From Armatimonadota bacterium (GTDB lineage: Bacteria; Armatimonadota; UBA5829; DTJY01), in contig JAIMAU010000001.1 of NCBI GenBank assembly GCA_023511795.1, positions 388,384 to 452,383 on the forward strand: a stretch of 64,000 nt of DNA. The letters are read 5' to 3'. The notes under the pieces were generated by a model. That model was not told where the DNA came from, did no database searches, and saw only the letters and a program-made list of their open reading frames with translations. Below, in pieces: positions 43,554 to 52,916 of this stretch. Every line of letters starts with the position of its first letter. Position 1 is the stretch's first letter. Position numbers and translations under genes: made by a program.

Positions 43554-44627
43554 ATGGAGATGTATGGCATTGTCATGGCAGGCGGCGGAGGCACACGATT
43601 GTGGCCAAAGTCTCGAGAAAACTTCCCTAAGCAGATACATCCTCTGGTGGGAGAGAAGCCGCTTGTGCAGGCTATGACAGATAGATTATCCGCAATTCTT
43701 GGCGAGGACAAGGTCTACATTATAACTAATGCCCATCATGTAGATTTAATCTGCGAAGCAACCGCGCGGAAGCCCGATGTGGTGTTTATCGATCCTTATA
43801 GGCGCGATACAGCACCTTGCATAGGCCTTGCGGCAGCATATATAAGCCTAATAGACCCAGAGGCAATTTTAGGGGTTTTCCCGTCAGACCATTATATTTC
43901 GGGTGATGAAGAGTTTGCACAAACTATACTGGCTGCGAAAAAGCTAGCGGAAATGGGAAAAGTGGTCACAATTGGTATACCTCCGACAGCCCCTGAAACA
44001 GGATATGGTTATATTCAAATAGAGCCCGAGTACGAAGTCATTAAAGGATGCGAGGTTCATAAGGCAAAACGATTTGTTGAAAAGCCTGACCTTCCGACTG
44101 CTAAACGATATGTTGAGAGTGGTGATTATCTTTGGAATAGCGGCATGTTTGTATGGAGTGTGCCAAAAATTATGGAGCTCTTTGCTCTTCATTTGCCGGA
44201 TATTCATGAGCGGTTAATGCGAATAAAAGATGCCGTCGGCGGAGAAAATGAAACCGACGTCCTTCATCGTGAGTATGAAGCAATGCGTCGGATTTCCGTT
44301 GATTATGGAATAATGGAGAAACTCGACGATATTATGGTCGTGCGGGCAACGTTTGGTTGGAATGACATTGGTAGTTGGACGGCAGTAAGCGACATAATGC
44401 CAAAGGACGAATACGGAAACGCAGTTAACGCTTTTCACATAGGAGTAGATACGACCAATAACTTGGTTGTTGGTTCGGAGGACAAGCTAATTGCAACCAT
44501 TGGGCTTGATGATATGATCATTGTTGATACCGAAGACGCGCTCCTTGTTTGTCCGAAAGACCGTGCGCAGGATGTGAAAAAGTTAGTAGAGTTATTGAAA
44601 GAGCGGGGTTTGGAGAAATATCTGTGA
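43554..44627 (+). CDS. manC: Mannose-1-phosphate guanylyltransferase
   Basis: 357 aa. Makes GDP-mannose for surface glycans. Seen: nucleotide motif IVMAGGGGTRLWPKSRENFPKQ at the N-terminus (read as two pieces: GGGGTRLWP and RENFPKQ), FPSDHYI, RFVEKPDLPTAKRYV, LWNSGMFVW and FGWNDIGSW. It lacks the C-terminal isomerase domain of the bifunctional type, so it is the short form. ATG 43554 follows GGAGAAGAG. Confidence 0.93.
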   Translation: MEMYGIVMAGGGGTRLWPKSRENFPKQIHPLVGEKPLVQAMTDRLSAILGEDKVYIITNAHHVDLICEATARKPDVVFIDPYRRDTAPCIGLAAAYISLIDPEAILGVFPSDHYISGDEEFAQTILAAKKLAEMGKVVTIGIPPTAPETGYGYIQIEPEYEVIKGCEVHKAKRFVEKPDLPTAKRYVESGDYLWNSGMFVWSVPKIMELFALHLPDIHERLMRIKDAVGGENETDVLHREYEAMRRISVDYGIMEKLDDIMVVRATFGWNDIGSWTAVSDIMPKDEYGNAVNAFHIGVDTTNNLVVGSEDKLIATIGLDDMIIVDTEDALLVCPKDRAQDVKKLVELLKERGLEKYL

Positions 44628-47009: not shown

Positions 47010-47096
47010 TGGTGCCGAAGGTCGGGGTCGAACCGACATGAGGTTGCCCTCACCGGTTTTTGAGACCGGCGCGTCTGCCAATTCCGCCACTTCGGC
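47010..47096 (-). tRNA. tRNA-Leu (anticodon CAA)
   Basis: Reads GCCGAAG acceptor, D-arm GGCGGAATTGGCAGAC, anticodon stem CCGGT with loop CTCAAAA (anticodon CAA), long variable arm TGAGGGCAACCTCA, T-arm GTCGGTTCGACCCCGAC, acceptor CTTCGGC, then A and encoded CCA. 87 nt including CCA. Long variable arm confirms class II Leu. Confidence 0.96.
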
Positions 47097-48189: not shown

Positions 48190-50883
48190 ATGAGTTTTAA
48201 AATGAGCAAAGGTAAGGTCATTCTTATAGACGGAAACAGCCTTCTATACAGAGCTTTCTTTGCCCTACCACACTTTTCTACATTGGAAAATCAGCCAACG
48301 AATGCAATTTACGGGCTTGCAATGATGCTATTGCGCCTCCTAGAAGAGGAAAAGCCCGATATCGTTATAGTATCTTTCGATGCCCCTGAAAAAACTTTTC
48401 GGCATGAAGAATACGTAGAATACAAAGCCCATCGAAAGCGGGCCCCCGATGAACTTCGTTCCCAGGGGCCTATTGCTCGCGAGATGATTGAAGCCTTCAA
48501 TATTCCTATTCTTGAGGTTCCAGGCTATGAAGCTGACGATGTTGTTGGCACAGTTGCTAGAAAAGCCGAGTCAGAAGGCTATGACGTAATCATTGTTACA
48601 GGTGACCTAGATGCTCTGCAACTTGTGGACAGCAAAGTTAAAGTAATGACTACCGTAAGGGGTGTTACTGAGACTGTCATCTACGATGAGAAGTCTGTTG
48701 AGGCTCGCTATAGCCTTAAGCCTAAGCAACTTATTGATTATAAAGCTCTTAAAGGTGATCCTTCGGACAATATTCCGGGCGTGCCGGGCATCGGCGATAA
48801 AACAGCTGTAAAGCTTATTAAAGAATTCGGTAGCCTAGAGAACATCCTTGCGCATATTGATGATATACAAGAAGCGCGGCTACGTGAGCAAATACGAAAT
48901 TCGATTGACCAAGCGTTGCTCTCAAAGCGATTGGCAACCATTAAGACTGATGTCCCCATTAACATTAACCTTGAGCAATGTAGGCTTCGAAAGCCAAACC
49001 TGCCAAAGCTTCGAGAGCTTTTCAAGCGTTTGGAATTTCGTTCGTTGTTGAAGCGGCTACCCGAGGATAATGCCCAGCCTGTTCTTGAATTTGAGTCGGA
49101 CGCCAAAGTAGAGGAATTGTCTGAATACAAACTCGTTTGCAATAGACCCTCTTTAGAAGCATTATTGGTACAAATTGAAAAAGCCGGGGGTTTTGCTTTT
49201 AGGATTCATGGAACAGCCGCACACCCAATTAATGCAGATGCGCTGGGTGTCGGGGTTTCTGTTGCCCCTGGTAAAGCGTATTATGTGCGCTTTGGCGAGA
49301 ATAGCGGGCTGAGTCTCCTGGATTTCAGGAAGTTATTGGAGTCAGAGAAAATAAAAAAATTCGGCCATAACCTCAAGTACGAATATGAAATAGCGCGAAA
49401 AGTTGGCATCGACATACAAGGTCTTGAGTTTGATACCATGCTTGCCGCATACCTAATAAACAGCTCACGGAATGTTCAGAAGTTGTCAGACGTCGTATTT
49501 GATTATCTATCAAGTGAATTCCCAGGCAAAGAGGGGACACAAGAAACTGAGCAAGAGCGGCTATTTGCGGCAGAGGCAGATGCGGCTATGCGTCTGGTCA
49601 GTATTCTCACGGATCACTTGGTGAAAGATAACATCGAGCTATTGATGTATAACATCGAAATGCCACTGGTGCCCATACTTGGGGATATGGAATTGACGGG
49701 CGTTGCCGTAGATAGTGCTTGGCTGGGGATTTTATCTGAAAAGTTAAGTGAACGGATTAATAACCTTCAAAAAGAAATATACACGCTTGCTGGGATGGAG
49801 TTCAACATTGGTTCTCCCAAGCAGCTTTCGTTTGTGCTTTTCGACAAGCTGGGCTTACCGGCAGAGAAAAAGACAAAGACCGGTTTTTCGACAGATGCTG
49901 ATACTCTTGTGGCCCTGGCACCAGCGCACGAAATCGTAGAGAAAATTCTAGAGTACCGAGAACTTACAAAGCTAAAGTCAACTTATGCAGATACCCTTCC
50001 CAAGCTAATCAATCCCAAGACGGGTCGGATACACACTACACTCAATCAAGCTGTCACTACGACGGGACGGCTGTCTAGCAGCGAGCCAAATCTGCAGAAC
50101 ATTCCCATTAAGACAGAGACAGGAAGGGAAATTAGACGAGCGTTTATCGCAGCTCCTGGCAATTTGCTTGTTTCGGTAGACTATTCACAAATCGAACTCC
50201 GCATCTTGGCGCATGTAAGCCGCGATGCTGAGCTACTGCGTGCTTTCAGGGAAGGTGAGGACATTCATACAACTACCGCTACTAGGTTGTTTGGCGTTTC
50301 AGCAGATGAAGTGACGCCAGAAATGCGGCGTCAGGCTAAAACCGTAAACTTTGCGGTTATTTATGGTATGAGCGATTACGGTCTTTCAAGGGAGCTGAAT
50401 ATTCCGACTGGGGTGGCAAAGAAATATATCGAAAGCTACTTCCAGCAATATCCCGGAGTGCGGAAGTACGCAAGCGAAACTCTTGAAAAAGCTCGAATAA
50501 ATGGCTACGTAGAAAGCTTGATGGGGCGACGTAGGTATCTTCCGGAATTGAACAGCGCTAATAGGGTCTACAGGGAGTTTGCCGAACGTGCAGCGGTAAA
50601 TATGCCGATTCAGGGGACAGCTGCGGATATTATTAAGCTGGCGATGATTGCAGTGAACGAGCGACTCAAGAAAAGCAACTTAACAGCAAATATGGTGCTT
50701 CAAGTCCACGACGAACTAGTCTTTGAAGTTCCTGAAAATGAGGTCGACGAACTCCTAAATTTGGTACTCCCGGCAATGCGGGATGTATATCCTTTGGATG
50801 TTCAGCTTGAAGTGGAAGCAAAAGTAGGAAAGGATTGGTGTACGGCTCAACCAGTATCTGTCGAGGAGCATATTGGTGCCTGA
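48190..50883 (+). CDS. polA: DNA polymerase I with degenerate proofreading domain
   Basis: 897 aa. Repairs gaps and removes Okazaki primers. Domains: 5' nuclease (1-290: ILIDGNSLLYRAFFALP, EADDVVGTVARKA, GDPSDNIPGVPGIGDKTA), 3'-5' exonuclease fold (about 320-480) and polymerase (490-897) with motif A SVDYSQIELRILAH, motif B RRQAKTVNFAVIYGM and motif C QVHDELVFE. The exonuclease metal residues (normally D-x-E) are absent: the segment reads FAFRIHGTAAH. So no proofreading is expected, as in Thermus and Bacillus enzymes. Start ATG 48190 (or 48202); no strong ribosome site. Confidence 0.95.
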   Translation: MSFKMSKGKVILIDGNSLLYRAFFALPHFSTLENQPTNAIYGLAMMLLRLLEEEKPDIVIVSFDAPEKTFRHEEYVEYKAHRKRAPDELRSQGPIAREMIEAFNIPILEVPGYEADDVVGTVARKAESEGYDVIIVTGDLDALQLVDSKVKVMTTVRGVTETVIYDEKSVEARYSLKPKQLIDYKALKGDPSDNIPGVPGIGDKTAVKLIKEFGSLENILAHIDDIQEARLREQIRNSIDQALLSKRLATIKTDVPININLEQCRLRKPNLPKLRELFKRLEFRSLLKRLPEDNAQPVLEFESDAKVEELSEYKLVCNRPSLEALLVQIEKAGGFAFRIHGTAAHPINADALGVGVSVAPGKAYYVRFGENSGLSLLDFRKLLESEKIKKFGHNLKYEYEIARKVGIDIQGLEFDTMLAAYLINSSRNVQKLSDVVFDYLSSEFPGKEGTQETEQERLFAAEADAAMRLVSILTDHLVKDNIELLMYNIEMPLVPILGDMELTGVAVDSAWLGILSEKLSERINNLQKEIYTLAGMEFNIGSPKQLSFVLFDKLGLPAEKKTKTGFSTDADTLVALAPAHEIVEKILEYRELTKLKSTYADTLPKLINPKTGRIHTTLNQAVTTTGRLSSSEPNLQNIPIKTETGREIRRAFIAAPGNLLVSVDYSQIELRILAHVSRDAELLRAFREGEDIHTTTATRLFGVSADEVTPEMRRQAKTVNFAVIYGMSDYGLSRELNIPTGVAKKYIESYFQQYPGVRKYASETLEKARINGYVESLMGRRRYLPELNSANRVYREFAERAAVNMPIQGTAADIIKLAMIAVNERLKKSNLTANMVLQVHDELVFEVPENEVDELLNLVLPAMRDVYPLDVQLEVEAKVGKDWCTAQPVSVEEHIGA

Positions 50884-50901: not shown

Positions 50902-50931
50902 TTGGCATGTATCTAAGTTATGTGTTATAAT
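50902..50931 (+). promoter_or_regulatory. Strong sigma70 promoter before the rpsA leader RNA
   Basis: TTGGCA (50902-50907), 18-nt spacer, TATAAT (50926-50931). Transcription would begin near 50938, giving a leader of about 245 nt before rpsA. Confidence 0.75.
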
Positions 50932-50937
50932 ACTGAG

Positions 50938-51128
50938 CAACGACATGCGGAAGCGGTCCTAAAGTAGCATGAACAAGCTGGACCTGCCGGGACAATTAAG
51001 GTGCCGCGCAGGGAAATTTAAAGCAGTAGAGTTCCCACCTACCTACTGCTAAATTCCAAAAACATGCACGACTGGGCGGATGTGGGATGCTACGTCCAAA
51101 TACTTTGAACGGACAGCAATATTGTCCG
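50938..51128 (+). ncRNA. Candidate structured RNA (independent ncRNA or rpsA leader)
   Basis: No coding frame. Begins at the promoter above. A closing 7-bp stem (GTAGCAT 50964-50970 with ATGCTAC 51087-51093) encloses a long central hairpin: GGAA/TTTA/GCAGTAG (51012-51029) with CTACTGC/TAAA/TTCC (51043-51057), loop 51030-51042. A further stem follows (51110-51115 with 51123-51128). The plan of a long rod with an internal bubble recalls 6S RNA, but I cannot match a consensus, so the identity is open. No B12 box or other riboswitch core was recognised. Confidence 0.5.
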
Positions 51129-51130
51129 TA

Positions 51131-51166
51131 CTAGGCGTTCAATTGAGTAAAGCAATTGACGCCTAG
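51131..51166 (+). promoter_or_regulatory. Hairpin immediately before the rpsA ribosome site
   Basis: CTAGGCGT and CAATTG (51131-51138, 51140-51145) pair with CAATTG and ACGCCTAG (51153-51166), one bulged T, loop 51146-51152: 14 bp. It ends 3-4 nt before AGAGGAG, so it could control translation or terminate transcription of the leader. No T-run follows. Confidence 0.55.
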
Positions 51167-51185
51167 AAGAGAGGAGTATTTAATC

Positions 51186-52916
51186 ATGACTTACGACAAA
51201 GAGGCTTACGAAGCCACCCCGCTAGAGAAAACGGGCTCCAACAAGAGCGAGGCCAAATCAGAGGATTTGGTCATGAATAATGAGCAATTGACGGAATCAG
51301 AAGTAAGCGAACCAGCTACGACATTTACAGAAGGAGCAGAGAAAAAGGCAGAAGTTTCGGTGGAGGCCGAGACAAAAGCAGAGGAGAAAGCTCCTGAGCC
51401 TGATAGTGCTGCGACATCTGCTGAAGAAGCCGAGCCCCAATCCGTGAAGAAAACCTCAGAACGTGGAGATCATTATTCGGAAACGTTTCGATCGTTGTCT
51501 GAGGGCGACCTAGTGGACGGAGTCGTGGTCCATATCGATAAAGATGGGGTGCTCGTGGATGTTGGCACAAAGTCAGAAGGCATAATCAAAATGACGGAGC
51601 TAGCACAGGAGCCGTTTCAGTCGCCGGAAGAAGTAGTTTCCGTTGGCGACCGAATTAACGTATATGTGATGGAAACGGAGAGCCAGGATGGCAGCTTGCT
51701 ACTATCAAAGAAACGCGCCGATTTCGAAAACGCATGGAATAGGGTAATCCAACACTACGAGGAAGATAAACCAATTACCGCAATGGTAACCGACCGCGTA
51801 AAGGGTGGTTTGGTAGTAGACCTTGGGGTTAGGGGTTTTATCCCAGCGTCTCATGTCGGTAGCGGGAACGTTAAAAACCTTGATAAATATATCGGCCAGT
51901 CGCTTCCCCTTAAAATTATCGAAGTTGACCGAGACCGCCGAAAAGTAGTTTTATCGCATAAACTTGCAGTAGAAAGCGAACGGGAGAAGCGGCGTGCCGA
52001 AACCATAAAGTCACTGCAAGAGGGCCAAATTCGCGAAGGTATTGTGCGACGCATTACCGACTACGGTGCGTTCATTGATCTTGGCGGTATTGATGGGCTT
52101 CTGCACGTTAGTGAAATGTCATGGACGAGAATAAACCATCCGTCGGAAGTGGTAAAAGTCGGCCAAAAGATTCAGGTGATGGTTTTGAAGCTGAACCTCG
52201 AGGCCGACAGGATATCACTCGGGCTGAGGCAAATTCTGCCCGACCCATGGGCGGATATCGAAAGTAAATATAGTGTCGGCCAGGTAATCGAAGGTGAAAT
52301 TTCGAGACTAGTGCCGTTTGGCGCTTTCGTTCGGTTGGACGAAGGTATTGAAGGGATAATTCCAAATGTTGAGCTGAGCAGAAAACGGGTTAAAAAGCCA
52401 GAGGATGTAGTTAAAGTTGGCGATCATGTAGAAGCAAGGATTGTCGAGCTCAAACCCGAAGAGCGGCGTATGACTCTAAGCATTCGCCAGATCCTTGAGG
52501 AAAAAGAAAAATCGGAATATGAGACTTATCGCCCAGCCCAAGACGAAGGCCGCATGACACTGGGCGACCTGGTTGGAGATAAACTTAGGGAGCTTCGAAG
52601 TGTAGTCGAGGAGGTAGAGGATCAACCTTCTAGGAAGCGAAAAAAGAAACAGCATATCAAAGCAGATGAGGAAGATTTTGAAGCTGATGTTGCGGGACCT
52701 TCCTTTGCCGAAGAAACTCTATCAAAAAAAGACGACGAAGCTGAAGCTGAGATAAAAGCGGTTGCTATCGAAGTCGAGGGCGTCCAGACCGAAATTCAAG
52801 AAGCATGCGAAGAAGTTAATTCCTCAACTAATGAGGCAGTTTCTGAAATATCTTCGACCGAAGAGGCAATGAAGCAGTCAACTACTGGGGCGGAAGAAGA
52901 GCCTGGTGAAGAATAA
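51186..52916 (+). CDS. rpsA: Ribosomal protein S1-like, four S1 domains
   Basis: 576 aa. Binds mRNA on the 30S subunit. An acidic, disordered N-terminus (1-100) is followed by four S1 domains (about 105-175, 192-260, 278-350, 363-436), the third and fourth being the most canonical (TDYGAFIDLGGIDGLLHVSE, VPFGAFVRLDEGIEGIIPN). The tail (437-576) is highly acidic. Four domains instead of six are usual outside Proteobacteria. AGAGGAG precedes ATG 51186. Preceded by a structured leader, which may allow autoregulation. Confidence 0.88.
   Translation: MTYDKEAYEATPLEKTGSNKSEAKSEDLVMNNEQLTESEVSEPATTFTEGAEKKAEVSVEAETKAEEKAPEPDSAATSAEEAEPQSVKKTSERGDHYSETFRSLSEGDLVDGVVVHIDKDGVLVDVGTKSEGIIKMTELAQEPFQSPEEVVSVGDRINVYVMETESQDGSLLLSKKRADFENAWNRVIQHYEEDKPITAMVTDRVKGGLVVDLGVRGFIPASHVGSGNVKNLDKYIGQSLPLKIIEVDRDRRKVVLSHKLAVESEREKRRAETIKSLQEGQIREGIVRRITDYGAFIDLGGIDGLLHVSEMSWTRINHPSEVVKVGQKIQVMVLKLNLEADRISLGLRQILPDPWADIESKYSVGQVIEGEISRLVPFGAFVRLDEGIEGIIPNVELSRKRVKKPEDVVKVGDHVEARIVELKPEERRMTLSIRQILEEKEKSEYETYRPAQDEGRMTLGDLVGDKLRELRSVVEEVEDQPSRKRKKKQHIKADEEDFEADVAGPSFAEETLSKKDDEAEAEIKAVAIEVEGVQTEIQEACEEVNSSTNEAVSEISSTEEAMKQSTTGAEEEPGEE

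Follow-up and report, generated by a model that had tools for sequence, protein, structure and literature searches.

A conserved RNA leader with a predicted fold and promoter upstream of rpsA in Armatimonadota

What is encoded in the gap between polA and rpsA of an Armatimonadota bacterium, and does it act on the synthesis of ribosomal protein S1? In the window, i.e. the whole stretch of 64,000 nucleotides that was analysed, polA ends at 50883, and rpsA, encoding ribosomal protein S1 with four S1 domains, occupies 51186 to 52916 on the + strand (start codon at 51186). The first-pass annotation had placed a near-consensus promoter ahead of an untranslated stretch in this gap, and such an arrangement was indeed found. 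A sigma-70-type promoter, TTGGCA-18-TATAAT with TG before the -10 box, begins at 50902 with TTGGCA and, after a spacer of 18 nt, ends at 50931 with TATAAT (+ strand; 11 of 12 positions match the consensus). With the start placed from the -10 box, the untranslated leader of rpsA would extend from 50938 to 51185 on the + strand (248 nt), and no intrinsic-terminator-like site was detected on the + strand between the promoter and rpsA. The promoter site of the window proves nothing alone, since 0.9 sites of such quality are expected by chance in the 701-base region scanned. The rpsA leaders of the class were located via the rpsA protein, which was matched in 24 of 28 genomes at E <= 1e-60. Over 22 leaders of the class, the top promoter score averaged 9.32 of 12 versus 7.53 for shuffled sequences, and none of 200 shuffle sets reached so high a value. 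A promoter-like site was present in most class leaders, the best one lying 142 to 311 nt upstream of the start in those outside genus g9; the scores of L045, L049, L053 and L055 were individually unremarkable.

The predicted fold of the leader (50938-51185) had an energy of -89.8 kcal/mol as compared with -61 for shuffled sequences (z = -5.88), with 0 of 200 shuffles folding as low, and the 3' 111 nt on their own gave a z of -7.91. When the 5' regions of 44 window genes called by a simple rule were ranked, the 248 nt before rpsA showed the lowest z (-6.07); the second lowest (-3.68) was that of the region before polA, which is mostly coding sequence. The closing stem, central bulged hairpin, further stems and 14-bp hairpin by the ribosome site that had been noticed at first pass all appear in the predicted fold. 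The fold starts with a 5' domain (50956-51077), in which a bulged closing stem (50956-50971 with 51063-51077) surrounds two hairpins, one at 50983-51012 and a central bulged one at 51022-51050. Hairpin P0 (51078-51097), the A/U-rich linker AAAUACUUUGA (51098-51108), hairpin PA (51109-51129) and the 14-bp hairpin PB (51131-51166) follow on the same + strand, and PB ends 2 bases before a strong Shine-Dalgarno (SD) sequence, GAGAGGAG, at 51169-51176. The same or similar SD sequences occur in the class leaders. PB was the best SD-adjacent hairpin among 31 window genes, the second best being a hairpin of -17.1 kcal/mol that ends right at the SD of the gene at 43554-44627 (+ strand). Elsewhere in the window, an 84-base tRNA lies upstream of sppA (47013-47096, - strand).

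The minimum-energy fold of the window's leader contains an extra helix in which AAAUACUUU (51098-51106) pairs over the SD. Sequestration of the SD by the A/U linker, while strong in this fold, was rejected: a substitution (column 240) in the nearest relative, G001, breaks the pairing, so that the SD-covering helix is not conserved, and no pairing partner of the SD was shared across 23 leaders. The linker may pair with the SD in the window genome, G000, only. In the predicted folds, the linker stretch was mostly paired in G000 and mostly unpaired in G001, and the SD was mostly open in G001 and many relatives. The linkers between hairpins differ in sequence: the window has AAAUACUUUGA, G002 an A-run and G004 GAAAGGUUGGA. 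Between PA and PB, GACUA is common to the leaders of family f3 (8 of 8 compared), and by eye GACUG stands at the equivalent place in several leaders of family f27.

A DNA-level search of 61 genomes, including the window's own, gave a single other clear match, in the same-genus genome G001 (94%), which differs from the window's leader by 13 substitutions and one 2-base gap. In the closing stem, A26-U136 (A50963-U51073) is jointly changed to G-C in G001; the pairing favoured in the window near there is slightly different (G27-C132 and U28-A131) and is impossible in G001. Two further pairs, C173-G191 and C199-G224, become U-G. The predicted 5' domain is backed by one close relative only, with one compensatory pair.

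Covariation was more widely seen in the 3' hairpins. In family f1, to which the window genome belongs, a MAFFT alignment of four genomes that was not fitted to structure (A4) had 44 of 44 cells paired in PA and PB, the 6 basal pairs of PA and the 5 basal pairs of PB being held in 4 of 4 genomes, and three pairs were changed on both sides (one in PA and two in PB); PA and PB were chosen for this count after inspection of all three hairpins. Slid controls were 11-44% paired, and the paired share and the covariation score were each reached in 7 of 500 shuffles. The pairing of P0 was out of register in G003 and G002 in this alignment, the sixth pair of PB did not keep register either, and in the fifth f1 genome, G004, which stands outside A4, the register of PA was broken on alignment A8. 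In the seven sequences of family f3, 92.9% of PB cells were paired, with two double-changed pairs, and 70.4% of PA cells. For f25, another family of the phylum, a gap-free alignment of five of the seven genomes revealed at the equivalent place a hairpin of 7 bp that stands five bases ahead of GAGGAG, with 33 of 35 cells paired, double changes in 4 pairs and a covariation score that 0 of 500 shuffles matched; G052 and G105 were excluded from this count because their hairpins differ. These sets are small (4, 5 and 7 sequences) and the support that they give is modest. An 18-leader MAFFT alignment (A1) had its helices out of register and was unused for counts. Besides, in f25 (L089, L090, L091, L094 and L097) the SD lies inside an invariant UGCU-GAGG-AGCA mini-hairpin before rpsA. 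Compensatory changes in the relatives' gaps, which the first-pass annotation had proposed as a check on its structured RNA, were found in PA/PB of f1 and in the f25 hairpin, and the lack of covariation that it had set against itself did not occur.

The 23 class leaders that were folded had a mean z of -2.46, so that their folds were on average stronger than those of shuffles. For 8 of the 23, 0 of 60 shuffles folded as low (z -5.65 for the window and -7.54 for G002), and the leaders of L045, L057, L062, L065 and G019 had z values above -1. Genus g9 (L065 and L066) has a leader of just 81-84 nt from which the fold is absent; its S1 is the most divergent in the class (37-43% identity), and the long N-terminal tail is absent from the L065 protein. 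A joint loss or replacement of the leader and this tail may have taken place in this genus. Of the 21 class leaders outside g9, 20 had a hairpin of <= -9.6 kcal/mol ending within 5 nt of the SD, as compared with 4 of 30 other SD-bearing window genes; in G004, the hairpin recognised by eye sits slightly farther from the SD. Against shuffles, the energy signal of these hairpins was modest (214 of 840 shuffles equalled it), and four of the 21 leaders (L045, L051, L056 and G004) failed to beat half of their own shuffles. In other families of the phylum, an SD-adjacent hairpin was found in 21 of 33 usable loci, whose start codons were chosen by rule and are surely wrong in some cases; shuffles often equal these hairpins because many of the loci are G+C-rich. 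Hairpin sequences vary freely among the class leaders while the position stays. By eye, a GCCGG-ACAAUU stretch is common to L048, L050, L051 and the 5' domain of the window.

A covariance model (R1) built from the leaders of seven f3 genomes was used to search 261 genomes. Five non-training genomes were matched at E <= 1.4e-3, and in four of them (G017, G012, G019 and G004) the match lies upstream of rpsA; the fifth, G080, is a strong match (3.6e-4) away from rpsA. In G019 and G004, rpsA is truncated at contig ends, and the protein search had overlooked the gene or detected its 3' part only; in both, the 5' end of rpsA was found in the DNA downstream of the R1 match. Weaker matches (74 of 261 genomes at E <= 1) were mostly not at rpsA. 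R1 matched the window with 19.3 bits, mainly via the stretch from SD to start and not via helices; since this stretch dominates outside the model's own family, the match speaks for gene context only. No polA was found within about 1.4 kb upstream in the f3 loci L047, L050, L051, L057 and L059, which indicates that the leader goes with rpsA, not with polA. The evidence for a conserved position, for promoter-like sites, for the fold, for compensatory changes and for the tie to rpsA is all computational; as judged from sequence, the rpsA leader is a real, conserved folded RNA with its own predicted promoter. The first-pass suggestion of a new leader class gains from the conserved position, the promoters, the compensatory changes and the absence of such a leader from Rfam.

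What, then, might the leader do? In the account of Eckert and Weinberg 2020 (PMC7247131), a structured, covarying leader with a constant place ahead of a single ribosomal-protein gene is generally regarded as a feedback element, and 20 ribosomal leaders of this kind are described there. In its Table 1, 0 of the 20 leaders are listed with the ligand S1 or the gene rpsA, and the terms rpsA and Armatimonad are absent from its main text. Since covarying single-gene ribosomal leaders are generally held to serve feedback, S1 feedback by a route other than that of E. coli appears to be the most likely function. We therefore favour, with a probability of roughly 0.5, the reading of this region as a 5' leader of rpsA that is expressed from a promoter of its own and acts in cis on S1 translation, most likely as an S1 feedback element. 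The leader probably tunes the amount of S1, and it is another example of a familiar type of ribosomal-leader control, from a new setting.

According to PMC10931766, S1 self-control is known in detail from gamma-proteobacteria only, and our searches of open-access papers turned up no S1 leader outside gamma-proteobacteria. By description, the gamma-proteobacterial RNA resembles the present leader in its place upstream of rpsA, its conserved fold and possibly its A/U-rich single strands by the start, which in the present leaders vary as given above. E. coli rpsA is described as having no canonical SD, with repression abolished by a canonical SD and dependent on S1 domain 6 (PMC10931766, PMC3296737). 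The window's leader, in contrast, carries the strong SD GAGAGGAG, and strong SDs are present in the class leaders too. The window's S1 differs as well: it has four S1 domains, scored above the cut-off of NCBIfam PRK06676 (30S ribosomal protein S1; 423.9 versus 368 bits) and aligns with the E. coli S1 chain over residues 19-304 only, so that E. coli domain 6 is missing. Since both the weak SD and domain 6 are wanting here, the E. coli mechanism as such is unlikely. We infer transcription of the region as a single leader, with S1 as its ligand and repression as the outcome of binding. In this scheme, the 5' domain would be followed by hairpins with short single-stranded linkers between them, the last hairpin, PB, abutting the strong SD. 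S1 in surplus over 30S subunits would bind at the single-stranded linkers and at the junction of hairpins next to the SD, and bound S1 would hinder ribosome entry. When S1 is scarce, the hairpins would hold the SD open and allow efficient S1 synthesis.

Close behind S1 feedback stands a purely structural role, in which the hairpins would keep the SD free in a gene with high expression, protect the 5' end of the mRNA and give ribosomes a standby place. The strong conserved SD directly after PB, the hairpin sequences that change freely while their position is held, and the mostly open SD in G001 and many relatives are all consistent with this serious contender. However, a leader of 140-310 nt with a 5' domain exceeds such a need, and PMC7247131 takes covarying leaders that are fixed ahead of a single ribosomal-protein gene to be feedback elements.

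It is unlikely that the leader answers a different ligand, such as a ribosomal protein other than S1, a small RNA or a metabolite. The 5' domain, by its size and shape, and the short shared linker (GACUA in f3, with GACUG in several leaders of f27) would suit such a ligand, but rpsA is the sole common downstream gene, the region has no terminator-like site on the + strand, and no riboswitch or leader of Rfam was matched. The first-pass annotation could not match a known family, and the Rfam covariance-model search agreed: no family matched in the window region or in the loci of 20 relatives. The one weak match, to flg-Rhizobiales on the opposite strand, was dismissed as chance (16.5 bits versus a cut-off of 55).

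It is very improbable that the region encodes an independent small RNA, whether 6S-like or of another type, that happens to lie before rpsA. Its promoter and strong fold would fit, and 6S RNA (RF00013) is likewise a promoter-driven folded RNA of similar size. The 6S-like option raised at first pass was nevertheless abandoned: RF00013 finds nothing at the rpsA leader, and the genome's true, full-length 6S is on another contig (L031, G000:C2:143182-143376, - strand; 90.5 bits). The fold also reaches the SD, a terminator-like site is absent, and the element is conserved together with rpsA. Chance folding of an intergenic stretch is scarcely credible, since, although L045, L057, L062, L065 and G019 fold no better than shuffles, it is contradicted by the compensatory changes seen in f1 and f25, the class fold mean and the top rank among 44 genes.

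Returning to S1 feedback, a wider form of this reading is doubtful but worth stating: S1 feedback leaders throughout the phylum might use a strong SD and a four-domain S1, with S1 gripping both hairpins together with the GACU(A/G) linker next to the SD and clamping the ribosome site shut, unlike the competition at a weak SD in E. coli. If S1 feedback is the true function, it would have arisen more than once or have more than one mechanism, since the E. coli mechanism should not work with the features found here. This rpsA leader, conserved in a phylum other than that of E. coli, offers a concrete RNA for testing S1 feedback.
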